Shown here one piece after another: positions 6,215-40,265 of a stretch of DNA of 64,000 bases. This DNA comes from Sphaerotilus hippei (GTDB lineage: Bacteria > Pseudomonadota > Gammaproteobacteria > Burkholderiales > Burkholderiaceae_C), in assembly GCF_003201595.1 (NCBI RefSeq), contig NZ_QJJS01000006.1, forward strand, positions 1-64,000. The letters are read 5' to 3'. Position numbers and translations under genes: made by a program. Position 1 is the first letter of the stretch, and every line of letters starts with the position of its first letter. The notes beneath the pieces were generated by a model. The model saw nothing but the letters and a program-made list of their open reading frames with translations, had not been told where the DNA came from and did not search any database.

Positions 6215-7255
6215 CGTGGCGGCCTTCAGCGCCCGGGCGCAGTCGCCCACCAGGCCGGGGCCCTGGTAGATCAGGCCGGTGTAGACCTGCACCAGGTCGG
6301 CACCGGCCTCGAGCTTGGTGCGGGCGGCCGTGCCGCTGTCGACGCCGCCGACCCCGATGATCGGGTAGGCCGCGCCCAGTTCGGCCCGCAGCTGGCGGAT
6401 CACCCGGTTGCTGGCCTCGAACACCGGCCGCCCGGACAGGCCGCCGGTTTCCTGGGCGTGGGCCAGGCCCTGCACGGCCGACCGCTCGATCGTGGTGTTG
6501 GTGGCGATCACGCCGTCGATGCCGTTGTGGCGCAGCGTGGCGGCGATCACCTTGACCTGGGCCTCGTCGAGGTCCGGGGCGATCTTGACGAACATCGGCA
6601 CCTGGCGGCCGTGCTGGCCGGCCAGTGTCTGGCGTCGCGCCTGCAGGGCGCCCAGCAGCGCGTCCAGCGCGGCGTCGCTCTGCAGCGCGCGCAGGTTCTT
6701 GGTGTTGGGGCTGGAGATGTTGATCGTCACGTAGTCGGCGTGCGGGTAGACGCCGTCCAGGCAGATCAGGTAGTCCCGCTCGGCCTGCTCGATGGGGGTG
6801 GCCGCGTTCTTGCCGATGTTGAGTCCGAGCAGGCCGCCCGAGCGGCGAAAGCGCGTGGCCCGCTTCACGTTGGCCAGGAAGCTGTCCAGGCCCTCGTTGT
6901 TGAAGCCCAGCCGGTTGATCAGCGCCTGCGCGGCGGGCAGGCGGAACATGCGGGGTTTCGGGTTGCCCAGCTGGCCCAGCGGCGTGACGGTGCCGACCTC
7001 GATGAAGCCGAAGCCCATCGCGCCGAGGCCGTCGATGCAGCGCCCGTTCTTGTCCAGCCCGGCGGCCAGGCCGATGCGGTTCGGGAAACGCAGGCCGGCC
7101 ACGGTGACCGGGTCGTCGACGCGCGCGCGGGCCCACAGGCACTGCAGCGGCGTGTTCTGGAAGCGCGCGATCGAGTCGAGCGTCAACTCATGGGCCGCTT
7201 CGGGGTCCATGCCAAAAAGGAAGGGGCGGGCGAGGGCGTAAGGCACTGACGACAT
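6206..7255 (-). CDS. pyrD: dihydroorotate dehydrogenase (quinone), class 2
   Basis: 349 aa, the usual length for the membrane-associated class 2 enzyme. It oxidises dihydroorotate to orotate with FMN and passes electrons to quinone in pyrimidine synthesis. Seen: the N-terminal amphipathic segment ([18 protein letters not shown]), [10 protein letters not shown], the NISSPNT motif around the catalytic Ser, KIAPDL, IATNTT and the C-terminal phosphate-binding GVGGVDSG. The start ATG at 7255 fits the family N terminus; the frame is open further upstream, but that part opposes rpiA and does not look like protein. Confidence 0.97.
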
Positions 7256-7300
7256 AATCCGGCGATTGTCCCAGAGACTTCCCTGATCCCGTTCCTCAAC

Positions 7301-7963
7301 ATGACTCAAGACGAACTCAAGGCCCTGGTGGGCCAGGCGGCCCTGGCCTATGTCGTGCCCGGCAGCATCGTGGGCGTGGGCACCGGCTCCACCGTCAACC
7401 ACTTCATCGACGCGCTGGCCACGGTGCGCGACACCATCCGGGGCGCCGTCTCCAGCTCGGTGAAGAGCACCGAACGCCTGCTGGCGCTGGGCATCCCGGT
7501 GCTGCAGGCCGAGGAGGTCGACTCGCTGCCGGTCTACATCGACGGCGCCGACGAGATCGACGCCCGGGGCTGCATGATCAAGGGCGGTGGCGCGGCGCTG
7601 ACTCGCGAGAAGATCGTCGCCGACCTGGCCGAGCGTTTCATCTGCATCGCCGACGAGAGCAAGCTCGTGCCGGTGCTGGGCCGCTTCCCGCTGCCCGTCG
7701 AGGTGATCCCGATGGCGGCCACGCAGATCGCCCGCCGCTTCGCGAAGGCCTATGGCGCCCAGGCCGTGCTGCGCGCCGGGGTGGTGACCGACAACGGCAA
7801 CCACATCCTGGACGTGAGCGGCCTGTCGATCACCGATCCGCTGGCCATGGAGGCCGAGACCAGCGGCTGGCCGGGCGTCGTCACCGTGGGCATCTTCGCC
7901 CGCCACCGCGCCAGCGTCTGCCTGCTGGGCACGGCGGACGGCGTGCGCACGATCGCCTACTGA
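7301..7963 (+). CDS. rpiA: ribose-5-phosphate isomerase A
   Basis: 220 aa, typical length. It interconverts ribose 5-phosphate and ribulose 5-phosphate in the pentose phosphate pathway. Motifs seen: [13 protein letters not shown] near the N terminus, YIDGADEID with the catalytic acidic residues, [12 protein letters not shown], and the C-terminal [14 protein letters not shown]. It is divergent from pyrD (46 bp between starts) and overlaps the 3' end of the next minus-strand gene by 7 bp. Confidence 0.97.
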
Positions 7964-8763
7964 TCCGTCGCGGTCACGGTGGGGGCGGCGTCGATCTCGA
8001 GGCAGCCTTCCACCGTGGCGGCGAGCGAGGCGTAGAACGCGGTCGAGAACATCAGCGCCACCGGCATCGCCAGCAGCATGACCAGCTGCTGCAGGCCCAG
8101 CAGCGTCAGCAGGCCGCCCAGCAGCATCGACAGCGCCACGTCGGCACCGGCCCAGGCCAGCGCGTAGACCCCGAAGGCGCCCAGGTTGCGCCAGCTGGCC
8201 AGCGCGCTGGCGAACAGGGCCTTCGGGATGGCCATGTTTTCGCGGTGCACCAGCACCGGGGCATGCCAGAACAGCAGCGACAGCGGCACCATCAGCAGCG
8301 CCCGCAGCACCATGCTGCCCTGCAGGTCGCCGATCGCCGCCATCACCTCGGCTTCGGTGCGCTGGTCCTCGTCGCCGCTGCGCAGCACGTCCCAGGCGGC
8401 TTCCAGGCCCGGATCGACCAGATCGGCCAGCCCCAGCAGCACGAAGGCCAGCACCGCGTGCAGCGCGCCCAGCTTCAGCAGCCGCGGCCGTGCCGGCGAG
8501 CGCAGCGGCGCCAGCAGGTGGCCCAGGCTGGCCGGCTGGCCGGCCTGCAGGGCCTGCACCTCGTGCACCCAGCCGGCGGTCAGCAGCGGCAGCAGTGCTC
8601 CGACCAGCAGCGGGCCGATCCAGGGCATGCCCAGCAGCATGCCCATCAGCAGCATCGTCAACGCGAACTGGCCGCTGAGCGCCAGCGGGTGGCGCAGCAG
8701 CAGCATCACGCCACTCTTCATCCACAGCGCGCCCTCGCGGGCCGTGGCTCGGCGCAGTTTCAT
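7957..8763 (-). CDS. BPSS1780-family integral membrane protein
   Basis: 268 aa with about six hydrophobic segments: paired helices near residues 30-65, one near 100-118, one near 155-170, and two near 195-240. The opening ([18 protein letters not shown]) and overall layout match the uncharacterised BPSS1780 family found mainly in Burkholderiales. Function is unknown. It follows thrB on the same strand with 13 bp between them, so the two are probably co-transcribed. Confidence 0.8.
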
Positions 8764-8776
8764 CGGGGATCCTCGT

Positions 8777-9745
8777 TCAGCTCACACCATGCCAGGGGTT
8801 GGCGATGCGTTCGCGCAAGACGCGCTCGAAATGGGTCGGATCGTGCGGCTGCAGCATGCTGGCCTCGCGCGGCAGGTGGAAGTCCCACAAGCGCGAGATC
8901 CAGAAGCGCAGCGCGGCGGCCCGCAGCATCGCCGGCAGCAGGCGCAGCTCGTCGTGGGTCAGCGCCCGCTCGTCCTCGTAGGCCTGCACGAAGGCGGCGG
9001 CCCGCAGCTCGTCGAGCCGGCCGGTGGACAGGTCGATGCACCAGTCGTTCAGGCACACCGCCAGGTCGAACAGCCAGGCGTCGACGCCGGCGAAATAGAA
9101 GTCGAAGAAGCCGGTGAGCTTCTCGTGGCCGGGCAGGCCGTCGAACATCACGTTGTCGCGGAACAGGTCGGCGTGCACCGGGCCGCGTGGCAGCGCTTCG
9201 TTGGCCGGGGTCTCGGCCACCGAGCGCTGGAAGAACAGCTCGTCCTCGAGCAGCGTGCGCTGCTCCGGCGCCAGGTGCGGCAGCACGACCGGCACGGTCT
9301 CGATCCACCAGTCCAGGCCCCGCAGATTGGGCTGGTGCAGCGGGTAGTCGCGGCCGGCCAGGTGCATGCGCGCCAGCATGCGGCCGACCTGCTCGCAGTG
9401 CCAGCTGGCCGGCGCGAGCTGGCTGCGGCCCTGCAGGCGGTTGACCACCGCGGCGGGCTTGCCGCCCAGCCGGTGCAGGATCACGCCGTCGGCGTCGGCC
9501 TGCGGGTCGGGCACCGGGATCTCGCGCCGGGCCAGGTGCTTCATCAGCTGCAGGTAGAACGGCAGCTGTTCGAAGGTCAGCCGCTCGAACACGGTGAGCA
9601 CCCACTCGCCCCGGTCGGTGCTCAGGAAGTAGTTGGTGTTCTCGATGCCGGCGGTGATGCCACGCAGATCGGTCAGCGAGCCCAGCGACAGCCGCTGCGC
9701 CAGGGCGGCGGCTTCTTCGCGGGACACTTCAGTGAATACGGCCAT
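8777..9745 (-). CDS. thrB: homoserine kinase, choline-kinase-like type
   Basis: 322 aa. It phosphorylates homoserine on the path to threonine. This is the aminoglycoside/choline-kinase fold form, not the GHMP form: MAVFTEVSREEA start, ITAGIENTNYFL, the catalytic loop PVHADLFRDNVMFDG and FFDFYFAG. Length and motifs are standard for Burkholderiales and Pseudomonas. It is first of a probable two-gene unit with the downstream membrane protein gene. It is preceded by a DUF2782 gene on the same strand after an 89-bp gap. Confidence 0.95.
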   Translation of the reverse strand: MAVFTEVSREEAAALAQRLSLGSLTDLRGITAGIENTNYFLSTDRGEWVLTVFERLTFEQLPFYLQLMKHLARREIPVPDPQADADGVILHRLGGKPAAVVNRLQGRSQLAPASWHCEQVGRMLARMHLAGRDYPLHQPNLRGLDWWIETVPVVLPHLAPEQRTLLEDELFFQRSVAETPANEALPRGPVHADLFRDNVMFDGLPGHEKLTGFFDFYFAGVDAWLFDLAVCLNDWCIDLSTGRLDELRAAAFVQAYEDERALTHDELRLLPAMLRAAALRFWISRLWDFHLPREASMLQPHDPTHFERVLRERIANPWHGVS

Positions 9746-14694: not shown

Positions 14695-17055
<2,361 letters not shown>

Positions 17056-30695: not shown

Positions 30696-33053
30696 ATGGT
30701 GTCACGTACAGCAGATGTTCTCCGTCGCATGTTCTTCCCGCCCTGGGCCAGCCGCAGCGGCGCCCGCCCGGATCCGGCCAAGCCGGAAGGAGAGGCCGGC
30801 GCTGCGGTCGCGCCCAAGCCGGCGCCTCCGGCCCGCGACCCGGTTCCCGGTGCTCATGGTGCCAGTGCCGCCTCCTTCGCCGCACTGACCGGCAAGCTCG
30901 ACTACCTCGACGAAGCAGACGTGCGCCGGGTGCGCGACGCCTACCGCTTCGCCGACGAGGCCCACCTCGGCCAGTTCCGCGCCAGCGGCGAGCCCTACAT
31001 CACCCACCCCATCGCGGTGGCCGGCCTCTGTGCCGACTGGAAGCTCGACGCCCAGGCCATCATGGCCGCGCTGATGCACGACGCGATGGAAGACTGCGGC
31101 GTGACCAAGCAGGAGCTGATCGAGCGTTTCGGCTCGCCGACGGCCGAACTGGTCGACGGCCTGACCAAGCTCGACAAGCTGCAGTTCCTGACCCGCGAGG
31201 AGTCCCAGGCCGAATCGTTCCGCAAGATGCTGCTGGCGATGGCGCGCGACGTGCGGGTCATCTTGATCAAGCTGGCCGACCGCATGCACAACATGCGCAC
31301 GATGACGGCCATGGCCGCCAGCAAGCGCGGCCGCATCGCCCGCGAGACGCTCGAGATCTACGCCCCGATCGCCCACCGGCTGGGCCTGAACCAGACCTAC
31401 CGCGAGCTGCAGGAGCTGTCCTTCCAGTTCCTGCGCCCCTGGCGCTACAGCGCGCTGTCCAAGGCCGTGCGCAGCGCGCGGGGCCACCGCCGCGACGTGG
31501 TCGAGCGGGTGCGCGTCGAGGTCGAGAAGGCCTTCGAGGAGGCCGGGCTGCCGGCCCAGGTCTACGGTCGCGAGAAGACCGTGCACTCGATCTACAACAA
31601 GATGCGCGACAAGCATCTGAGCTTTGCCCAGGTCAGCGACATCTTCGGTTTCCGGCTCGTGGTCAACACGCTGCCCGACTGCTACCTCGCGCTGGGCGTG
31701 CTGCACCAGCTGTTCAAGCCGGTGCCGGGGCGTTTCAAGGATTACATCGCGATCCCGAAGGCCAACGGCTACCAGTCGCTGCACACCATGGTCGTCAGCC
31801 CGGTCGGCACGGCGGTGGAGTTCCAGATCCGCACCGAGGCCATGCATGCGGTGGCCGAGGCGGGCATCGCCGCGCACTGGATGTACAAGACCCGCCAGGA
31901 CCACGAGGGCGCCGACAACCAGCACATCGGCACGATGTGGCTGCAGTCGCTGGTCGACATCCAGAGCGAGACCCGCGATTCCGCCGAATTCCTCGAGCAC
32001 GTCAAGATCGACCTGTTCCCCGAGTCGATCTACGTCTTCACGCCCAAGAGCAAGATCCTGGCGCTGCCGCGCGGGGCCACGCCGGTCGACTTCGCCTACG
32101 CGATCCACTCCCGCGTCGGTGACCACTGCGTGGCCGCGCGCGTCAACGGCGAGCCGGTGGCGCTGCGCACCGAGCTGCGCTCGGGCGACGTGATCGAGAT
32201 CGTGACCGCTCCGGCGGCCCGCCCGAATCCGGCCTGGCTGAATTTCGTTCGCACCGGCCGGGCCCGCTCGAAGATCCGCCACTACCTCAAGAACATGGAG
32301 GCCGAGGAGTCCTACGAACTCGGCCAGAAGCTGCTGGCCCAGGCGCTGCGCGCCGAAGGCCTGCAGCTGCCCACGGCCGAGGACGACGACATCGACGCCA
32401 ACAGCGTGCTGTGGCATGCGCTGGTGCGCTGGAGCGGCAACCGCAACCGCCGCGAGCTGATGGTCGACATCGGCCTGGGTCGCAAGATCGCCTCGATCGT
32501 CGCCAAGCGGCTGGCCAAGCTGATGGTCGACCAGGGCCAGCGCCCCGACGCGCTGACGCTGACCATGGGCCGCTACGCCACCGACAGCAACGCGCCGGCC
32601 CAGGGCACGGTGGTCATCGACGGCACCGAGAACGCCACGGTGCAGCTGGGCACCTGCTGCCGGCCGATCCCGGGCGATGACATCGTCGGCTACCTCGGCC
32701 GCGGCGAGGGCCTGACCGTGCACCGCGCCGAATGCACGGTCGGCAAGCGCCTGTTCGAGCGCGACAGCGAACGCTGGCTGACGGTGGAGTGGTCGGACCA
32801 CCCGGCCCGGGCCTTCCAGACCTCGGTGGCCGTGCTGGTGCGCAACGGCAAGGGCGTGCTGGCCGAGGTGGCCCAGGCCGTCAGCGTCGCCGAGGCCGAC
32901 ATCACCCACATCGACATGGACACCTCCCGCAGCGGCGAGACCAGCGAGCTCAAGCTGCTGCTGGCCGTGCGTGACCGCCAGCACCTGGCCGACGTGCTGC
33001 GCGTGCTGCGCCACCGGCCCTCGGTCGACAAGGTCTCGCGCGTCAAGTCCTGA
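30696..33053 (+). CDS. spoT: bifunctional (p)ppGpp synthetase/hydrolase, SpoT-type
   Basis: 785 aa. The HD hydrolase domain is intact (His128-Asp129 in LMHDAMEDCG), so it can degrade (p)ppGpp. The synthetase domain has R346-F-K-D (RxKD class of bifunctional enzymes) and IPKANGYQSLHT, EFQIRT. TGS (YVFTPKSKILALPRGATPVDFA), helical, Cys-containing (LGTCCRPIPGDD) and ACT domains follow. The N-terminal 55 residues are a Pro/Ala-rich extension. It controls the stringent response. The 3' end overlaps greB by 11 bp in convergent orientation. Confidence 0.97.
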   Translation: MVSRTADVLRRMFFPPWASRSGARPDPAKPEGEAGAAVAPKPAPPARDPVPGAHGASAASFAALTGKLDYLDEADVRRVRDAYRFADEAHLGQFRASGEPYITHPIAVAGLCADWKLDAQAIMAALMHDAMEDCGVTKQELIERFGSPTAELVDGLTKLDKLQFLTREESQAESFRKMLLAMARDVRVILIKLADRMHNMRTMTAMAASKRGRIARETLEIYAPIAHRLGLNQTYRELQELSFQFLRPWRYSALSKAVRSARGHRRDVVERVRVEVEKAFEEAGLPAQVYGREKTVHSIYNKMRDKHLSFAQVSDIFGFRLVVNTLPDCYLALGVLHQLFKPVPGRFKDYIAIPKANGYQSLHTMVVSPVGTAVEFQIRTEAMHAVAEAGIAAHWMYKTRQDHEGADNQHIGTMWLQSLVDIQSETRDSAEFLEHVKIDLFPESIYVFTPKSKILALPRGATPVDFAYAIHSRVGDHCVAARVNGEPVALRTELRSGDVIEIVTAPAARPNPAWLNFVRTGRARSKIRHYLKNMEAEESYELGQKLLAQALRAEGLQLPTAEDDDIDANSVLWHALVRWSGNRNRRELMVDIGLGRKIASIVAKRLAKLMVDQGQRPDALTLTMGRYATDSNAPAQGTVVIDGTENATVQLGTCCRPIPGDDIVGYLGRGEGLTVHRAECTVGKRLFERDSERWLTVEWSDHPARAFQTSVAVLVRNGKGVLAEVAQAVSVAEADITHIDMDTSRSGETSELKLLLAVRDRQHLADVLRVLRHRPSVDKVSRVKS

Positions 33054-33624
33054 GCGGCACCCCGCCGTCCGGCGTGGGGTAGCGCACCTCGAGCACTTCC
33101 AGGTGCTCGAGGCCGCCCGGCGTCATCAGCTGCACCTCGTCACCCTCGCGTGACTTCAGCAGCGCGCGGGCGATCGGCGAGACCCAGCTGACCTCGCCCT
33201 GCAGCGCATCGGCCTCGTCGATGCCCTTGATCGTGATCGTGCGTTCCTCGCCGTGCCGGTTCAGGTAGGTGACGGTGGCGCCGAAGAACACCTGGTCGCT
33301 GCCATGGTGGCTCGACGGGTCCGCGACCTCCGCGATGTCGAGCCGCCGCGTGAGGAAGCGGATGCGCCGGTCGATCTCGCGCAGCCGCTTCTTGCCGTAG
33401 AGGTAGTCGCCGTTCTCCGACCGGTCGCCGTTCTTGGCGGCCCACGACACCACCTCCACCACCCGCGGACGCTCGACGTCCAGCAGGTTCATCAGCTCCG
33501 CGCGCAAGGCGCGGTGGCCGGCCGGGGTCATGTAGTTGCGCAGGCCGGCGGGCAGGGCCGGCAGGGCACCGGCCTCCTCGTCGTCGTCGCCGGCATCGGG
33601 TTCGCGGGTGAAGGCCTTGCTCAT
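33043..33624 (-). CDS. greB: transcription elongation factor GreB
   Basis: 193 aa. The coiled-coil finger with its acidic tip reads NGDRSENGDYLYGKKRLREIDRRI, followed by the FKBP-like C-terminal domain (ATVTYLNRHGEERTITIKGIDEAD, VSWVSPIARALL). GreB rescues backtracked RNA polymerase by stimulating transcript cleavage. The YGKKRL form indicates GreB rather than GreA. The N-terminal 28 residues are an acidic extension. It is convergent with spoT. Confidence 0.95.
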   Translation of the reverse strand: MSKAFTREPDAGDDDEEAGALPALPAGLRNYMTPAGHRALRAELMNLLDVERPRVVEVVSWAAKNGDRSENGDYLYGKKRLREIDRRIRFLTRRLDIAEVADPSSHHGSDQVFFGATVTYLNRHGEERTITIKGIDEADALQGEVSWVSPIARALLKSREGDEVQLMTPGGLEHLEVLEVRYPTPDGGVPLRT

Positions 33625-33735
33625 CGTTTCTGTTCCGGGGGCATGGATTTCATTTTGCCGCGGGTGCGGGCGGCTGCCGCAAATGCTGCATTCGAGGGGG
33701 AGGGTGACGTTTTTTCTCTTTTTGGCGAGAATTCG

Positions 33736-33816
33736 GTCACACTTTGTCACATCCGGTCCTACAGGCAGGGGGGCGACTGCCGAAAAACCTCCCAAGTCGC
33801 CTTTTTTTGAATTCAA
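33736..33816 (+). promoter_or_regulatory. leader with terminator-like hairpin and palindrome ahead of the signalling cluster
   Basis: Two direct GTCACA repeats exactly 10 bp apart (33736-33741 and 33746-33751) are followed by GGCGACT (33772-33778) and AGTCGCC (33795-33801), a perfect 7-bp stem with a 16-nt loop, then seven T residues (33802-33808). The perfect palindrome TTGAATTCAA (33807-33816) overlaps the T-run. The hairpin looks like a plus-strand intrinsic terminator, but it lies 66 bp upstream of a plus-strand start codon with no plus-strand gene closer than spoT. I infer an attenuator or operator for the downstream cluster; a late stop for spoT read-through is the alternative. Confidence 0.55.
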
Positions 33817-33881
33817 CGTACCCGGAGACCGCGACCGTGAACCACCCCAGTTCGCCCGCCACTTTTTTGAGGGCCCCTGTC

Positions 33882-34523
33882 ATGTCCCGTCCCCATTTTG
33901 CTCAAGATCCTCTCGATCCCCTGCTGACCACACGTGAAGCGGCCATGCGACTGGGTGTTTCGCTGCGCACCGTGCAACTCTGGGTCGAGGCCGGCACGCT
34001 GCCGGCCGGACGCACCCCCGGTGGTCACCGGCGCATCCGCCTGTCCGCGGTCGAGGCGCTGGCCCAGCGCAGCGGCCTGCGTGCCGCGGCCCAGAGCCAG
34101 CAGCCGGCACCGCCCTCGTCGTCCGGCGTGGACGTGCTGCTGATCGCCGCCACCGTCGACCAACTGCAGCTGTGGAACGATGCGCTGCAGCCGCTGACCG
34201 CCTCGGTGACGCTGCGCGGCGCCAACAACGGCTACACCGGGCTGCTGCAGCTCGGCAACCGGGTGCCCGACCTGCTGGTCACCGACCTGGCCATGCCCGA
34301 CATCGACGGCTACGCGATGCTGTCGACGCTGTCGAGCATCCCGGAGTACGGTGCGATGCACACCCTGGCCATCACGCCGCTGACGCCCCAGGCGATCGCC
34401 GAGCGCGGCGGGCTGCCCGACCGGGTCCGCGTGCTGCACCACCCGGCGCCGGCGCAGGCGGTGCGCACCTGGATCGAGGGCGAGCTGGCCCGCCTGGGCC
34501 GGAGCCAGAGCGTGGGGGCCTGA
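33882..34523 (+). CDS. excisionase/MerR-type HTH protein with degenerate receiver domain
   Basis: 213 aa from ATG 33882; GTG 33837 is a longer alternative. Residues about 12-60 are a winged HTH of the BldC/excisionase type (TREAAMRLGVSLRTVQLW, AGRTPGGHRRIRLS). After an Ala/Gln/Pro linker comes a receiver-like domain (about 85-205). It keeps the phospho-site Asp (LLVTDLAMPDIDGY) and the Thr (LAITP), but the Mg-binding acidic pair at strand 1 is AA (VLLIAATV) and the strand-5 Lys is His (LHHPAP). It is therefore unlikely to be phosphorylated normally. It is 2 bp ahead of a kinase-like gene and probably partners with it. Confidence 0.75.
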   Translation: MSRPHFAQDPLDPLLTTREAAMRLGVSLRTVQLWVEAGTLPAGRTPGGHRRIRLSAVEALAQRSGLRAAAQSQQPAPPSSSGVDVLLIAATVDQLQLWNDALQPLTASVTLRGANNGYTGLLQLGNRVPDLLVTDLAMPDIDGYAMLSTLSSIPEYGAMHTLAITPLTPQAIAERGGLPDRVRVLHHPAPAQAVRTWIEGELARLGRSQSVGA

Positions 34524-34525
34524 CC

Positions 34526-35623
34526 ATGAACGACGCCTTCAGGATGCTGTTCGACCAGGTCAGGAGTGGCGTCGTCTGGGTGGGGCGCAACGGCCAGGTG
34601 CGTTATGCCAACAAGGCGGCCGTTCAACTCACCCCCTGCATGCTGGGCCGCCCGTTCATGGACCCGGTGGTGGACCGCCACATCAAGTCCGCCGTCGACG
34701 GCCTGGCGCCGCTGCCGTTCCAGTTCGAGCTGCGCACCCAGGAGGTCCGCCCCGACACGGTGAAGGCGGTGATCATTCCGGCCCCGGTCGGCAACGACCT
34801 GATGCTGGTGCTCAACAACGTCTCGGAGGAGCGCTGGTTCACCCAGGCCCTCGAGAACCTCATCCACTACATCGACGCCGAGATGTCCCGGCCGATCGAG
34901 CGGCTGGTGGCCGATCTGGCGGCCTTGCCGGGCGGCCTGGCCCTGCTGGAGCAGGGCCGTGGCCAGGATGCCGGCATGGCCGCCGATGCGGCGGCGCTGT
35001 CGGACCGGCTCGGGCGCCTGCGCGACCTGGTCAAGGTCTTCGGCAGCGGGGCCATCCAGTGCGACGACCGGCTGGTGATGTCGCAGGTGCTGCGCTCGGC
35101 GCTGGACCTGGTGGCGACCTCGCTCGACGAGCGCAACGTGACCGTCACCCTGACCGGGGTGCAGGAGGACCTGGCCGTCTACGGCAGCCCGACCTGGCTG
35201 CCTCGTGCGCTGGTCGAGTACCTCGACCAGGCGATCCGTTCGTCGGCCCGGGGCTCGGTGATCGAACTCTCGCTCAGCGGGGCCGGCACCCGCATCGTGC
35301 TGCGGTCGCGCAGCCGCGGGCTGTTCGTGTCGAACCAGGACCGCCGCAACGCCTACGTGCCTTTTGGCGTGGGCAGCGGTGCCGATCAGGCCCATCCGCG
35401 CATCGGCCTGGCGCTGGCGCGGTACGTGGTCGAGCAGCACGGCGGCTCGGTGCGCATCGACGATGAATACGACACGGTCGACTTCGTGCTGGAGCTGCCG
35501 GCGGGTGCACCTGCCGACCAGGGCGCCACGCAGCTGTCGATGGAGCAGGCCCAGCGTTATGCCCGCGACATGGCCCAGCTGATGGCGCGCAGCACGCAGC
35601 GCCGCGCGCCCAAGCCTGCCTGA
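34526..35623 (+). CDS. PAS-containing histidine-kinase-like protein without catalytic residues
   Basis: 365 aa. The N-terminal PAS domain (about 1-95: VWVGRNGQVRYANKAA) leads to a dimerisation helix in which the H-box reads EMSRPIERL: Arg122 stands where the phospho-accepting His is expected. In the ATPase-like half the N-box is DQAIRSS (Gln for Asn) and the DxGxG loop is missing (RSRSRGLFV), while the end (IGLALARYVVEQHGGSV) still looks like a kinase. I infer a pseudokinase that senses through PAS and signals by protein contact. It starts 2 bp after the HTH-receiver gene. The C-terminal 35 residues are a helical tail. Confidence 0.75.
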   Translation: MNDAFRMLFDQVRSGVVWVGRNGQVRYANKAAVQLTPCMLGRPFMDPVVDRHIKSAVDGLAPLPFQFELRTQEVRPDTVKAVIIPAPVGNDLMLVLNNVSEERWFTQALENLIHYIDAEMSRPIERLVADLAALPGGLALLEQGRGQDAGMAADAAALSDRLGRLRDLVKVFGSGAIQCDDRLVMSQVLRSALDLVATSLDERNVTVTLTGVQEDLAVYGSPTWLPRALVEYLDQAIRSSARGSVIELSLSGAGTRIVLRSRSRGLFVSNQDRRNAYVPFGVGSGADQAHPRIGLALARYVVEQHGGSVRIDDEYDTVDFVLELPAGAPADQGATQLSMEQAQRYARDMAQLMARSTQRRAPKPA

Positions 35624-35648
35624 GCAGGCCTTCCAAGGAAACATCGAC

Positions 35649-36032
35649 ATGACCCACCGCATCCTGATCGTCGAGGACCAGGCCGACATCCGCAAGCTGA
35701 TCCGCATGACGCTGGAGTTCGGCGAGTTCGAGATCCACGAGGCCCAGGACGGCGAGTCCGGGCTGAACAAGGCCAAGGCCGTCCGCCCGCACGTGATGCT
35801 GCTCGACGTGATGATGCCGGGCCTGCTGGACGGCTATCAGGTCTGCCAGCGCATCAAGCAGGATCCCGAGCTGCGGGACATCCAGATCATCATGCTGACC
35901 GCCCGCGGGCAGGCCACCGACGTGGCCATGGGCGAGAAGGCCGGCGCCGACGCCTACCTGGTCAAGCCCTTCAGTCCGCTGGAGCTGATCGATCGGGTCG
36001 AGGCCATCGTGGCCAGCCGATCGCCCGGCTGA
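35649..36032 (+). CDS. single-domain response regulator
   Basis: 127 aa, one receiver domain with all key residues: EDQ at strand 1, phospho-acceptor in LLDVMMPGLLDGY, Thr in IIMLTARG and Lys in YLVKPFSP. It has no output domain, so it acts by protein contact or as a phosphate relay or sink. The sequence MPGLLDGY contains two extra residues compared with the usual MPxxDG loop. It lies between the pseudokinase and the PAS kinase in the same cluster. Confidence 0.93.
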   Translation: MTHRILIVEDQADIRKLIRMTLEFGEFEIHEAQDGESGLNKAKAVRPHVMLLDVMMPGLLDGYQVCQRIKQDPELRDIQIIMLTARGQATDVAMGEKAGADAYLVKPFSPLELIDRVEAIVASRSPG

Positions 36033-36128
36033 GGGTCCGGGGACCTCCTGCATCTCGGCCTGGCGGCGCACTCGAGGGCGCCTGGAAGGGCCTCCGGCCG
36101 GTTGCGGTCATCGGATGAAGGAAACGAT

Positions 36129-38114
36129 ATGGATGTGTCGACGCTCACGCTGGGCCTGCTGATCGGCGTCGTGCTGACCTGGTTCGTGACGAGTCTGCTG
36201 CGCCTGCAGGACGACCGCCGCAGCCAGGCGGCGGCGCGTGCCAGTGGCGAGATCTTCACCGCCGCCATCGTCGAGGCCGCGCCGGACGCGATGGTCGCCA
36301 CCAACGCGGCCGGCGAGATCGCCTGGGCCAACGAAGCCAGCTCCAGCATCTTCGGGCGCAGCGGCGACGAGCTGCGCGGCCTGCGCCTGTGCGAGGTGCT
36401 GCCGGCCTTCGAAGGCCGGCTGATGGAGCGCTGGATGAGCGATCACGGCATCAACGGCCGGGTGATCGCCCACGAGACCGTGGGCCAGCGGGTCGACGGC
36501 ACCCGCTTTCCCTGTGCCGTCTCGGGCAGCGTGATGCGCCTCGGGGACGAGCGCTGCTTCACCTTCGTCGTGCGCGACACCACCGACAGCCGCTGGGCCG
36601 AGCAGGAACTGCTGCTGCGCGAGCGGGCCCTCGAGTCGGCGGCCGACGGCATCACCATCCTCAGCATGGAGCTGCCCGGCGAGCCGATCATCTTCGCCAA
36701 TCCGGCCTTCTGCGGCATCACCGGCTACAGCCACGACGAGGTCATCGGCCGCGCGTTCGGCTTCCTGTACGGCGACGGCCCCGACGCCCGCGCCGCGATG
36801 CAGGAGATCCGCCGTGCGATGGCGGCGCGCGTGGCCACCCGGGTCGTCGTCAGCCTGCTGCGCAAGGACGGCGTGCTGTCCTGGAACGAGCTGCGCCTGG
36901 CCCCGGTGGTGCGCGAGGACGGCCGCATGACCCATTACGTCGGCGTGCACGTCGACATCACCGAGCGCATGGCGCAGGAGGAGATGCTGCGCCTGCGCAC
37001 CGAGCGGCTCAACACCATCTTCGACCTGAGCCCCGACGGTTTCGTGGCCCAGGACGAGCAGGGGCTGGTGCGCATCGTCAACCCGGCGTTCGAGCGCATG
37101 ACGGGCCTGCCGGCCCACGAGCTGCTCGGCCAGTCGCGCGATCTTCTGGAGGATCGGCTGGCGGCCATCTGCCGCGGCACCGAGTCCGCCGACGCCGGTG
37201 CGGCGGGCGGCGACAGCCAGATGCTCGGGGAGGCTGGCGCCATGCCGGTCCGCACGTTCGGAGGCGAGCTGCTGCATCTGGCCTCGCCCGCACCCCGCAC
37301 GCTGCTGCGTCGGGTGCGGCGCAGCCAGGGCACCGGGCACGAGACGGTCATGTACTTCCGCGACATGACGCGGGAGTTCGAGGTCGATCGCATGAAGAGC
37401 GAATTCCTGTCGATGGCCGCCCACGAGCTGCGCACGCCGATGGCCAGCATCTTCGGATTCACCGAGCTGCTGCTGAAGCGCAAGTTCGACGAGGTCCGTC
37501 GCCAGGACATGCTCGCGACCATCCACCGCCAGGCGGGCGTGCTGGTCAACCTGGTCAACGAGCTGCTGGACCTGGCGCGCATCGAGGCCCGCCGCGGCAA
37601 GGACTTCCATCGCAGCGTGCAGCCCCTCGTGCCGATCCTGGAGAACACGCTGGCGGGCATCCTGGTGCACAACGATCCCCGCAAGGTGCAGGTGAGCTGG
37701 TCGGACGAGGACGCCGGGGTGCTGGTCAACGTCGACGCCGAGAAGCTGGCCCAGGCGGTGCTCAACGTGGTGTCGAACGCCTACAAGTATTCCAGCGACG
37801 GGGACATCGGCCTGCAGCTGCTGCGCCGCGACCATGACGGCATCGGCGTGTGCGTCACCGACCAGGGCATGGGCATGACGCCGGAGCAGCTGGGCCGCGT
37901 GTTCGAGCGTTTCTTCCGTGCCGACACCTCGGGCAACATCCCGGGCACCGGTCTGGGCATGACGATCGTCAAGGAGATCCTCGAGCTGATGGATGGCCAG
38001 GTCGAGGTGCACAGCGAGCACGGGCGGGGAACCCGCGTCACGCTCTGGCTGCGCACGGCGGCACCGGCCCCCGAGCCCGTGGGCGACCCGGCGCCTGCGC
38101 TGGCCCGGGCCTGA
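36129..38114 (+). CDS. membrane-anchored multi-PAS sensor histidine kinase
   Basis: 661 aa. One N-terminal membrane helix (about 6-25), PAS 1 (about 42-155), PAS 2 (about 165-290), PAS 3 (about 300-415), HisKA with His432 in MAAHELRTPM and a complete HATPase (NVVSNAYKYS, DQGMGMTPEQ, GTGLGM). PAS 2 looks like a LOV domain (ITGYSHDEVIGR, LRKDGVLSWNELRLAPV, YVGVHVDITER), but the flavin loop is GRAFGFLYG at 207-215: Phe210 replaces the adduct-forming Cys. Start ATG 36129 has an AAGGAAA site. Its HisKA segment is nearly identical in DNA to that of the HNOBA kinase downstream. Confidence 0.92.
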   Translation: MDVSTLTLGLLIGVVLTWFVTSLLRLQDDRRSQAAARASGEIFTAAIVEAAPDAMVATNAAGEIAWANEASSSIFGRSGDELRGLRLCEVLPAFEGRLMERWMSDHGINGRVIAHETVGQRVDGTRFPCAVSGSVMRLGDERCFTFVVRDTTDSRWAEQELLLRERALESAADGITILSMELPGEPIIFANPAFCGITGYSHDEVIGRAFGFLYGDGPDARAAMQEIRRAMAARVATRVVVSLLRKDGVLSWNELRLAPVVREDGRMTHYVGVHVDITERMAQEEMLRLRTERLNTIFDLSPDGFVAQDEQGLVRIVNPAFERMTGLPAHELLGQSRDLLEDRLAAICRGTESADAGAAGGDSQMLGEAGAMPVRTFGGELLHLASPAPRTLLRRVRRSQGTGHETVMYFRDMTREFEVDRMKSEFLSMAAHELRTPMASIFGFTELLLKRKFDEVRRQDMLATIHRQAGVLVNLVNELLDLARIEARRGKDFHRSVQPLVPILENTLAGILVHNDPRKVQVSWSDEDAGVLVNVDAEKLAQAVLNVVSNAYKYSSDGDIGLQLLRRDHDGIGVCVTDQGMGMTPEQLGRVFERFFRADTSGNIPGTGLGMTIVKEILELMDGQVEVHSEHGRGTRVTLWLRTAAPAPEPVGDPAPALARA

Positions 38115-38127
38115 ACGGAGCGCCGCC

Positions 38128-38685
38128 ATGTACGGATTCGTCAACCGGGGCCTGGAGCAGATGGTGACGGCCCGCGGGGGCCGGGAGGCCTGGCGGCGGG
38201 TGTGCCGGCGCGCGCACCTGGGCTCCGAGGGCTTCGTGTCCCTGCAGGTCTACCCCGACACGCTCACGCTGCGGCTGATCGACGCCGTCAGCGAGGAGCT
38301 CGAGATCAGCGGCGAGCGGGTGCAGGAGTCCTTCGGCGCGTACTGGGTGACCCACACCGCGCCGCAAGGCTATGGCGAGCTGCTGCAGCCCGCCGGCCGT
38401 TCCCTGTGCGAGTTCCTCGAGCAGCTCTCCCAGGTGCATCGCCGCGTCCGCGCCAGCGTGCCCGAGCTGGAGCTGCCGCTGATGGAGGTCGAGCGGCTGG
38501 CCCCCGCGGGGCACTGCCGTCTGCGCTGCTCGTCGTCCGCCGACGGGTTCACCGCGCTGGTGACGGGCATGCTGCGCGGGCTGGCCCAGGTCCTCGGCGA
38601 CCCGGTCGACATCGAGTTGCAGGAAGTCTTCACGACCGGTGGCCGCTGCCACACGGTCTTCATGGTTCGCAGGAGCATCTCATGA
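38128..38685 (+). CDS. H-NOX (haem nitric oxide/oxygen binding) domain protein
   Basis: 185 aa, a stand-alone H-NOX: MYGFVNRGLEQMV start, GYGELLQPAGRSLCEFLEQL and the C-terminal GMLRGLAQVLGDPVDIEL. His104 (LSQVHRRVR) aligns with the proximal haem ligand. The YxSxR motif that holds the haem propionates is changed: the equivalent positions are Cys134, Ser136 and Ala138 (RCSSSADGF). Bacterial H-NOX proteins sense NO or O2 and regulate a partner kinase or cyclase; the partner here is surely the next gene, coupled by a 4-bp overlap. Whether this protein still binds haem is open. Confidence 0.9.
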   Translation: MYGFVNRGLEQMVTARGGREAWRRVCRRAHLGSEGFVSLQVYPDTLTLRLIDAVSEELEISGERVQESFGAYWVTHTAPQGYGELLQPAGRSLCEFLEQLSQVHRRVRASVPELELPLMEVERLAPAGHCRLRCSSSADGFTALVTGMLRGLAQVLGDPVDIELQEVFTTGGRCHTVFMVRRSIS

Positions 38686-40265
38686 GTGGCTCACTCGTCG
38701 CCGATCGCGGCCCCGGGCTCAGTCCCGCGCAGCTGGTCCGCGCCTTTCCGTTTTTCATCCATGTCGACCGGTTCCTGGTGATCCAGTCCTTCGGTCCTTC
38801 GCTGCGCAAGGCGATGCGCGTGCTGCAGCCCGGCGTCAAGCTGGGGGCGCTGTTCGAGGCCCAGCAGCCGATGGACGCGTCCAATGCCGCGGCCTGGGCC
38901 GCCCATCCGGGCGAGCTGGTCACGCTGACCTCCCGCAGCGGCGGGGCGCTCACGCTGCGGGGCAGTTCCGAGCCGATGGAGGACGGGTCGTGGCTGCTGC
39001 TGGTCTCGCCGGTCTTTGCCGGGGTGTCCGAGATGGTGGCGCTCGGGCTGGAGTTCTCCGACATCGCCAAGCACGACGCCGCGGCCGACCTGCTGCTGGC
39101 GCGGCGCACCGTGGAGCTGTCGCTGGACGATGCCCGGCGCCTGGCCACCCGGCTGCGGGCCCGCACCCACCAGCTGGAGACCATCCTCGAGCTGAGCGCC
39201 GGCGGCGTGCTGTACTTCGACGCGACCGGCACCCTGATGCATTGCAACGAGGCGCTGGAGGCCACCCTCGAGATGCCGCGCGACGAGCTGATCGGCCGCA
39301 GCCTGGCGCAGGTCGACGAGGTGCTGGTGGCGATGCTGGCCCCGCGTGACCGGCGGCGCCAGATCCTGCAGCAGCTGGCGGTCTGCGAGGGCGGCGAGCC
39401 CGGCACGACCACCACCGTGCAGCTGCAGCTGCCGATGCACAAGACCGTGCAGATCCGCCATCGCACGAGCGCCGAGGGCGAGAGCGTCTTCTACCTCGTC
39501 GACATCACGCGGGAGACCGAGGTCGACCGCATGAAGAGCGAATTCCTGTCGACGGCCGCCCACGAGCTGCGCACGCCGATGGTCAGCGTCTTCGGTTTCA
39601 CCGAATTGTTGCTCAAACGTGAATATCCGCCCGAGCGCCGCCGCGAGATGCTCGAGACCGTGCACCGCCAGACCGGCGTGCTGGTGCACCTGGTCAACGA
39701 GCTGCTGGACCTGTCGCGCATCGAGGCGCGGCGGGGCCAGGATTTCCTGGTGCACGACCACGAGCTGATGGCCCTGGTCACCCATGCGGTCGACGGGCTG
39801 ATGGTGCCGGGAGATGGGCGCCAGGTCCGGCTGATCAACGACATGTTCGACCCGGCGCCGACCGTGCAGGTCGATGCCGAGAAGTTCGGGCTGGCGCTGA
39901 CGAACGTGCTGTCGAACGCCTACAAGTACTCGCCTGCCGGGGGCGAGATCACGCTGAGGGTGCGCCCGGCGGTGATGGGCGACCTGCCGGCCGTCAGCGT
40001 CGAGGTCGGCGACCAGGGCATGGGCATGAGCCCGGAGCAGCAGTCGAGGCTGTTCGAGCGCTTCTGGCGGGCCGATCCGTCCGGGCGCATTCCCGGGACC
40101 GGCCTGGGCATGTGCCTGGTCAAGGAGATCCTCGAGCTGCTGGGCGGACAGGTCGACGTGCAGAGCGCCATCGGGGTCGGCACGACGGTCTCGCTGACCC
40201 TGCCGTGCAGCGAGACCGTCCGCGCCGAGGTGATCCCCGTGGCCACCGTGATCGACATGGATTGA
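38682..40265 (+). CDS. HNOBA-PAS sensor histidine kinase, partner of H-NOX
   Basis: 527 aa, soluble. The N-terminal HNOBA domain (about 20-130: FPFFIHVDRFLVIQSFG, LQPGVKLGALFEAQQP) is the H-NOX-associated domain known from soluble guanylate cyclases and H-NOX-linked kinases. A short coiled coil (about 140-170) joins it to a PAS domain (about 170-280), HisKA with His294 (TAAHELRTPM) and HATPase (NVLSNAYKYS, GDQGMGMSPE, GTGLGM). It should be switched by the H-NOX protein, whose stop codon overlaps its start (ATGA). No cognate regulator with an output domain is fused or immediately next to it; the single-domain regulator at 35.6 kb is a candidate. Confidence 0.9.
   Translation: MSGSLVADRGPGLSPAQLVRAFPFFIHVDRFLVIQSFGPSLRKAMRVLQPGVKLGALFEAQQPMDASNAAAWAAHPGELVTLTSRSGGALTLRGSSEPMEDGSWLLLVSPVFAGVSEMVALGLEFSDIAKHDAAADLLLARRTVELSLDDARRLATRLRARTHQLETILELSAGGVLYFDATGTLMHCNEALEATLEMPRDELIGRSLAQVDEVLVAMLAPRDRRRQILQQLAVCEGGEPGTTTTVQLQLPMHKTVQIRHRTSAEGESVFYLVDITRETEVDRMKSEFLSTAAHELRTPMVSVFGFTELLLKREYPPERRREMLETVHRQTGVLVHLVNELLDLSRIEARRGQDFLVHDHELMALVTHAVDGLMVPGDGRQVRLINDMFDPAPTVQVDAEKFGLALTNVLSNAYKYSPAGGEITLRVRPAVMGDLPAVSVEVGDQGMGMSPEQQSRLFERFWRADPSGRIPGTGLGMCLVKEILELLGGQVDVQSAIGVGTTVSLTLPCSETVRAEVIPVATVIDMD

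Follow-up and report, generated by a model that had tools for sequence, protein, structure and literature searches.

A cluster of two sensor kinases, a pseudokinase and a pseudo-receiver around a single-domain regulator in Sphaerotilus hippei

In the Hno systems of Shewanella and Vibrio (HnoX-HnoK-HnoB/HnoC/HnoD) a separate H-NOX gene stands beside a kinase which feeds receivers, and HnoD is described with an inactive domain (PMC8738867, PMC8846402). DivL of Caulobacter is a PAS-bearing pseudo-histidine kinase with the single-domain receiver DivK as its partner, and it reads phosphorylated DivK (DivK~P; PMC5361649). Among the atypical response regulators, CmrT and WhiI are DNA-binding proteins with a receiver devoid of catalytic residues; in a 2025 review CmrT lies beside normal two-component genes and the switching of pseudo-receivers is called an open question (PMC12632262). 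Described here is a cluster of six signalling genes from Sphaerotilus hippei (Burkholderiales), which encodes an H-NOX protein, two active histidine kinases, a pseudokinase (psK), a single-domain response regulator (REC), and a DNA-binding protein with a pseudo-receiver. It was analysed within a stretch of 64,000 nucleotides (assembly GCF_003201595.1, contig NZ_QJJS01000006.1, positions 1 to 64,000 of the forward strand), called the window below, and comprises the following features:

33882..34523, + strand: HTH-pseudoreceiver gene; HTH_17 (excisionase/BldC-like) DNA-binding domain, then a pseudo-receiver (open reading frame, Pfam, alignment)
34526..35623, + strand: psK gene; PAS domain and histidine-kinase fold, without phospho-His and without DxGxG (Pfam, alignment, AlphaFold, Foldseek)
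35486..35620, + strand: C-terminal tail of psK, PxGAP...QAQxYAxDxAxLMAR (family alignment)
35649..36032, + strand: REC gene; canonical E-D-D-T-K (Pfam, alignment)
36129..38114, + strand: three-PAS histidine kinase gene; intact catalytic boxes (Pfam, alignment)
38128..38685, + strand: H-NOX (HNOB) gene; His104 kept, C-S-S-S-A for YxSxR at codons 38527-38541 (Pfam, alignment, AlphaFold)
38682..40265, + strand: HNOBA and PAS histidine kinase gene; intact catalytic boxes (Pfam, alignment)

The six closely spaced plus-strand genes had been recognised in this order in an earlier, sequence-only reading of the window, which open reading frames and Pfam domains bear out with the H-NOX start at 38128; the gap of 2 bp between the HTH-pseudoreceiver gene and psK and the 4 bp overlap (ATGA) of the H-NOX and HNOBA kinase genes were likewise found as described. 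In Pfam the first protein matched HTH_17 with 48.6 bits and Response_reg with 29.6 (just below the cut-off of 30.2), psK matched PAS_8 with 20.3 (below the cut-off of 21.8) and HATPase_c with 28.2 (cut-off 26.4), and REC matched Response_reg with 95.2. The PAS kinase showed three PAS domains, HisKA (66.5) and HATPase_c (91.9), the H-NOX protein HNOB (PF07700; 117.6 bits, cut-off 25.5), and the HNOBA kinase HNOBA (52.1), HisKA (66.0) and HATPase_c (87.6). A dead kinase and a dead receiver had also been noted correctly. psK has alanine in the place of the phospho-His and no DxGxG, and in the receiver of the HTH protein Ala-Ala replaces the acidic pair and His the Lys. A pseudo-receiver being defined as a receiver without at least one of D, DD, T, and K, this domain is one; DD and K are lost, the phospho-Asp (codon 34284-34286) and Thr are kept. 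Decay of the six genes into pseudogenes was considered and is not favoured, as the frames are open, the GC content at third codon positions is 0.89-0.95 (0.94 in the neighbouring spoT), and the ratio of nonsynonymous to synonymous substitution rates (dN/dS) is below 1 for the first four genes, from the HTH-pseudoreceiver to the PAS kinase.

Compared with the Hno systems, the window kinase next to H-NOX carries HNOBA and PAS domains, its likely partner is a REC paired with psK, and a second, PAS-bearing kinase is present. psK resembles DivL in its PAS domain, its pseudo-kinase nature, and its single-domain receiver partner, the latter assigned by gene linkage. Unlike DivL, to which it is not orthologous by sequence, it lacks DxGxG as well, bears a conserved tail at the C-terminus, and is encoded in linkage with REC and often with the HTH protein. 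This HTH protein shares with CmrT and WhiI the combination of DNA binding and a receiver without catalytic residues, but is HTH_17/BldC-like and has relatives with intact receivers in the same kind of gene arrangement. No paper on this gene combination was among the matches listed in literature searches, most subscription journals lying outside their coverage. The earlier reading knew of no H-NOX pair combined in this way; the combination recurs in the order, though, and is not a unique juxtaposition.

The cluster is read here, with a little better than an even chance of being right, as a two-sensor, one-regulator module in which psK is the dedicated partner of REC. The PAS kinase and the H-NOX-linked HNOBA kinase would share the surface of their phosphotransfer (DHp) domains and both would phosphorylate the canonical REC. 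psK, with a kinase fold but without phosphotransfer chemistry, would bind phosphorylated REC (REC~P) and transmit the signal by contact between proteins, via its PAS domain or the conserved C-terminal helix, in analogy to DivL reading DivK~P. In most lineages examined the HTH protein with its intact receiver would be the likely transcriptional output, and in the window genus, where the receiver chemistry is lost, it would have to be gated by contact or act as a constitutive regulator. The weakest step is that the window H-NOX may have little or no affinity for haem, and may report the redox state or serve as a fixed scaffold.

By sequence, psK is a member of a coherent protein family and not unique to the window. 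A search with the protein in 150 genomes of the bacterial family to which the window belongs yielded relatives of 27-34% identity and full or nearly full length in six genomes beyond the window's. With a profile of nine sequences (A1), 30 of 399 family genomes together returned 34 matches scoring 104 bits or more, the next match having 86 bits and being followed by ordinary kinases. With genome G152 from the window genus included, the psK loci in the family amount to 35. A profile of 29 sequences (A5) matched 10 of 349 genomes sampled from the order, 8 of them outside the family; one locus (L260 of genome G559) had intact kinase boxes and was removed from the counts, which leaves 7 loci from other families and a set of 42. 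The phospho-His at the H-box column is missing in 40 of these 42 and DxGxG in all of them, which suggests a DivL-like reader of REC~P and not a relay step. With a dN/dS of 0.16-0.40 psK appears to be under purifying selection. Its best-conserved part, above the kinase core, is the C-terminal tail (mean information 2.64 bits vs 1.87-2.21 elsewhere in 29 sequences). For tail residues 339-360 AlphaFold predicts an extra helix with a low pLDDT of about 49-71, and no match listed in a profile search of the PDB with psK extends past position 329. The psK model (mean pLDDT 74.4) matches histidine-kinase structures including DivL in a Foldseek search against the PDB, the DivL fragment 4q20 having the top target-normalised TM score (0.67) among the 50 matches listed. 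A role as receiver phosphatase is not favoured; the ExxT/N rule links the motif after the histidine to phosphatase activity, and where the kinases have ExxT (HELRT), this motif reads EMSR in the window psK and DLRD or the like in many other psK. At two loci, L180 (genome G275; psK at 6887-8023) and L258 (psK at 8293-9381), a histidine stands at the phospho-His column and the ATP boxes are degenerate. In L181 (genome G340) psK and REC are separated by a short second frame (8724-8972) with a 41-bit psK match, which may have arisen by duplication of the psK tail.

Judged by gene order, the association of psK with REC is the strongest link found. REC lies directly downstream of psK in 40 of the 42 loci. 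It starts -22 to +68 bp from the end of psK on the same strand in 33 of the 35 family loci, with G340 (+769) and one of the two psK of G133 as exceptions, and -3 to +161 bp from it in all seven loci of other families. REC itself is canonical, with E/D-D-D-T-K in 34 of 38 homologues and Ser for Thr in the other four. A same-type kinase scoring no less than 180 bits accompanies psK at a distance of up to 9 kb at 33/35 family loci and 7/7 other-family loci, and an HTH-receiver gene does so at 24/35 and 6/7, hence at 30 of 42. In a REC-based scan of named genomes (best 80 of 578 loci) the best named relatives were Rhodoferax, Aquabacterium, and Acidovorax metagenome-assembled genomes, in keeping with Burkholderiales; a single-sequence search there found psK beside REC in L090 (from Rhodoferax, 89 bits) and weakly in L099 (17 bits), weak matches at five other scanned loci being read as ordinary kinases or hybrids. 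A plasmid search gave two weak partial matches for psK and six alphaproteobacterial records for H-NOX. At five psK loci an HD-domain gene (HD_5; HHExxDGxGYP in L186) follows directly after REC (L071:10398-11159, L186:10327-11073, L183:7290-8081, L253:7043-7855, L254:7518-8321), which suggests a cyclic-di-GMP phosphodiesterase output. Solute-binding proteins are encoded within two others (SBP_bac_3, L180:10725-11552; Phosphonate-bd, L074:10027-10869), and further inputs may be plugged into the module in this way. HTH-receiver genes also neighbour genes for a single-domain receiver and a kinase where psK is missing, in L083 (genome G044, 7355-8062) and L088 (genome G048, 14967-15611).

REC is probably the common target of both active kinases, as had been proposed before, to judge from the similarity of their phosphotransfer helices. 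The H, N, and G1 boxes are intact in the HNOBA kinase and the catalytic boxes are intact in the PAS kinase, in which a hydrophobic N-terminal stretch was discerned by eye. The two DHp domains of the window share 77% identity across the 75 residues surrounding the phospho-His. Pairs were compared for the window, L256, L186, and L254, the L070 pair being left out; in L256 the PAS and HNOBA kinases have 96% identical DHp domains with the same helix after the histidine, and the DHp domain of an unrelated kinase from L180 shows 30-38% identity. A tree of 63 kinase domains placed psK-linked PAS and HNOBA kinases in one part with the sensors intermixed, the HNOBA kinase of G275 pairing for instance with the PAS kinase of G276. 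This could be one kinase type with exchangeable sensors, which addresses REC where REC is present.

Co-occurrence of psK and HNOB exceeds chance, and the six-gene order is recurrent. HNOB was found in 27/399 family genomes and 32/349 order genomes. In the family sample it is present in 8/30 genomes with psK vs 19/369 others (p=3e-4) and in the order sample in 7/9 vs 25/340 (p=9e-7), where the false psK genome G559 was excluded from the order sample and a divergent HNOB of G234 (profile match only) was uncounted, the samples share a few genomes, and related genomes are not independent. The two halves of the cluster also stand together in relatives, in line with the neighbourhood expected from the sequence-only reading: HNOB is near psK at 6/35 family and 4/7 other-family loci, thus 10 of 42, in four families including the window's. 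L256 has exactly the window order, HTH-psK-REC-PAS kinase-HNOB-HNOBA kinase, at nearly the same distances, and L255, from the same genus, which belongs to a family other than the window's, has it as far as the HNOBA domain at the contig end. L186 shares this order except for an intervening HD-domain gene and an inverted HTH gene. At 22 control HNOB loci without psK (stretches of 8.9 to 20 kb) REC was found at none, the HTH-receiver at none, and the kinase at three.

By its sequence the window H-NOX is a member of the H-NOX fold family, and it is uncertain whether it is of the haem-sensor kind. Its closest solved relative is Nostoc Alr2278 (1.9e-31); the proximal His104 aligns with Nostoc His105, and the AlphaFold model (pLDDT 92.5) has a TM score of 0.90 to the Nostoc structure 2o09 in Foldseek against the PDB. 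Unlike Alr2278, which keeps Tyr-x-Ser-x-Arg, it reads Cys-Ser-Ser-Ser-Ala, with Cys and Ala in place of Tyr and Arg, a change which adds to the sequence-only reading. Since the clamp is lost, canonical NO sensing is uncertain in Sphaerotilus hippei, and the NO or O2 sensing formerly ascribed to the H-NOX pair is put in doubt for the window. The motif comes from one genome of the species and a sequencing error may be involved. The motif was checked at 27 of 29 HNOB places in the family and in G234 (profile match). Two of the 22 non-cluster proteins were too short, and the other 20 all have His and Tyr, 19 of them also Arg. Among six family proteins from psK clusters three are intact, that of the window is changed, and those of G140 and G234 have lost the motif (His position unsure); all four from other families have it intact. 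A scan of named genomes with the window H-NOX found no relative. The window genome (4.43 Mb, 45 HisKA matches) has a single HNOB gene. Elsewhere in their genomes, two other members of its genus show partial HNOB matches of 25.7 and 23.5 bits which cover just the first half of the domain (L204:6906-7403, L205:6693-7334).

For comparison within the genus the conserved flank on one side served to mark the locus:

33043..33624, - strand: greB, conserved flank marking the same locus in relatives
30696-33053: spoT, conserved flank beside greB

The open frame of greB extends to 33816, and the ATG at 33624 was picked as start by comparison with shorter relatives. On the other side lie an OmpR-type regulator (40372) and a HAMP kinase. 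Genome G158 (68% complete) was left aside, and all 12 readable genomes of the genus have an HTH protein with Ala-Ala/Ser at the acidic pair, Gln or His for Lys, and Asp and Thr kept. In G376 and G251, from another genus, the receiver is dead and the phospho-Asp is lost too (Asp to Asn). All catalytic residues, with either Ser or Thr counted at T, are found in 27 of 41 aligned HTH-receiver proteins of the family and so the dead receiver looks derived; in L255 and L256 the receiver is intact as well. Of the 38 loci carrying an HTH-receiver gene, 14 have greB, exactly the 14 with a dead receiver. Between greB and the HTH gene (about 33690-33881 of the window) a few blocks, including an invariant TCACA, are conserved over the 12 genus members.

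Nine of these 12 species lack psK and the PAS kinase at the locus and keep the HTH-pseudoreceiver with greB. In a spoT tree the nine form a weakly supported group (0.615) adjacent to lineages with psK, among them the outgroup genus, a placement which favours loss. The REC/spoT distance to the outgroup is 0.85-2.09 in the nine vs 0.66-0.82 in the three with psK; the pseudo-receiver/spoT distance is not split in this manner (3.0-4.2 vs 3.4-3.9). For within-group rate means, pairs with a spoT distance below 0.03 were skipped. With REC evolving faster where psK is missing and the pseudo-receiver not, REC seems dependent on psK and its kinase and the HTH protein apparently is not. The persistence of the HTH-pseudoreceiver in nine species without psK and PAS kinase, at an unchanged rate, makes its place as downstream output in the window lineage doubtful, and the former idea that REC acts there on a psK/HTH pair found no support.

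A number of observations weigh against the two-sensor module. psK and the PAS kinase are at the locus in only 3/12 genus members, and the H-NOX/HNOBA pair in the window genome only. The rate contrast is one of 3 vs 9 related genomes only; greB too is somewhat faster in the nine (0.74-1.10 vs 0.69-0.76), and on scaling by greB G150 (1.00) falls within the range of the three (0.90-1.08), the other eight exceeding all three. The likeness of the DHp domains is uneven (62% between PAS and HNOBA kinase in L186, 49% in L254), and a third kinase of the window genome (contig 15, L229) reaches 113-120 bits vs 129-130, the kinases after it having at most 43 bits (30 of 45 HisKA places examined). This kinase as well as psK-less HNOBA kinases (G376, G190, G256) stand in the same part of the kinase tree, in which 18/58 supports are below 0.7 and 27/58 at least 0.9. 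The window genome has two further REC-like genes, and partner specificity is not proven. The H-box His is present in 2/42 psK (G275, L258), and psK is not a DivL orthologue, a PDB sequence search giving HK853 with 2.4e-18 vs DivL with 4.5e-13. A search for promoter-like sites across the region found none; it is uninformative and lends no support to a single transcript. Terminator-like sites were equally uninformative, with one in the region, within the last gene, and a count not above that of shuffles.

Four other explanations have to be weighed. The HTH-pseudoreceiver might be a stand-alone, phosphorylation-independent regulator of the genus, with REC and psK having another output and merely sharing the locus. 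This is a serious possibility, if somewhat short of an even one: it fits with the retention of the gene beside greB in 12/12 genus members, with an HTH part about 94% identical on average in the genus vs 79-86% for greB, and with the loss of receiver chemistry, in G376 and G251 even of the Asp, but less well with the 30/42 loci where an HTH-receiver gene is within 9 kb of psK, the gap of only 2 bp to psK in the window, and the phospho-Asp retained throughout the genus. It is unlikely, in turn, that two neighbouring systems are involved, namely a core of HTH protein, psK, REC, and PAS kinase and an H-NOX/HNOBA pair which landed beside it and works separately, for example on the OmpR-type regulator. 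The restriction of the pair to one genus member and the occurrence of H-NOX/HNOBA kinases without psK (L206, L211, L219) agree with such a landing, whereas HNOB beside psK in four families, the six-gene order in L255 and L256, the genome-level co-occurrence, and the 77% identity of the two window DHp domains argue for one system.

ChpT and Spo0B have a histidine kinase-derived fold without ATP chemistry, a likeness to psK. The lack of the DxGxG ATP box from a kinase-like fold and the position of psK between two receiver genes would suit such a phosphotransferase, psK then being a genuine step of a relay that runs from REC to the HTH receiver. With the H-box His missing in 40/42, and with the HTH receiver of the genus, for all the intact ones among its family homologues, lacking the acidic pair and Lys of a terminal receiver, this was rejected as very improbable. 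Rather unlikely, yet less so than two separate systems, is that the window H-NOX is a normal haem sensor of NO or O2 despite its motif. In its favour are the proximal His and the predicted fold. Moreover the precedent for motif loss causing haem loss is weak: for the alpha subunit of soluble guanylate cyclase, which is haem-free and in its moth form is without YxSxR, a review treats motif loss as only an assumed cause, the pocket being filled by an N-terminal extension in the structures (PMC8196705). The window protein from its ATG has no such extension. Against it, Tyr and Arg are both gone, residues kept in nearly all full-length HNOB proteins examined outside the psK clusters, and a 2011 study names Y135, S137, and R139 as the motif by which soluble guanylate cyclase binds haem (PMC3212528). 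A haem-free H-NOX of Vibrio cholerae can sense oxidation via cysteines (PMC7108781), and the window protein has Cys130, Cys134, and Cys174. A wider version of the two-sensor module has a low probability. In this version an order-wide module in which the signal ends on REC and is read by the psK family would have drifted in the window lineage to contact-only signalling, with a dead receiver on the transcription factor, a dead kinase, and a haem-free H-NOX which may sense redox through these three cysteines.

With two active kinases that probably share REC, a dead kinase nearly always paired with REC, and an HTH protein and an H-NOX which have lost key chemistry, the cluster is a good test case for information transfer by dead signalling proteins. 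Relatives provide a natural series, in which the same kind of arrangement occurs with an intact receiver (27/41 in the family, L255, and L256) or a dead one (the window genus and one other) and with and without psK, and H-NOX loci of the same kind are available with and without the haem clamp. As psK has a near-obligate receiver partner, partner binding should be directly testable. If the proposal is true, psK and REC would add a second, non-orthologous example to the logic known from DivL and DivK.

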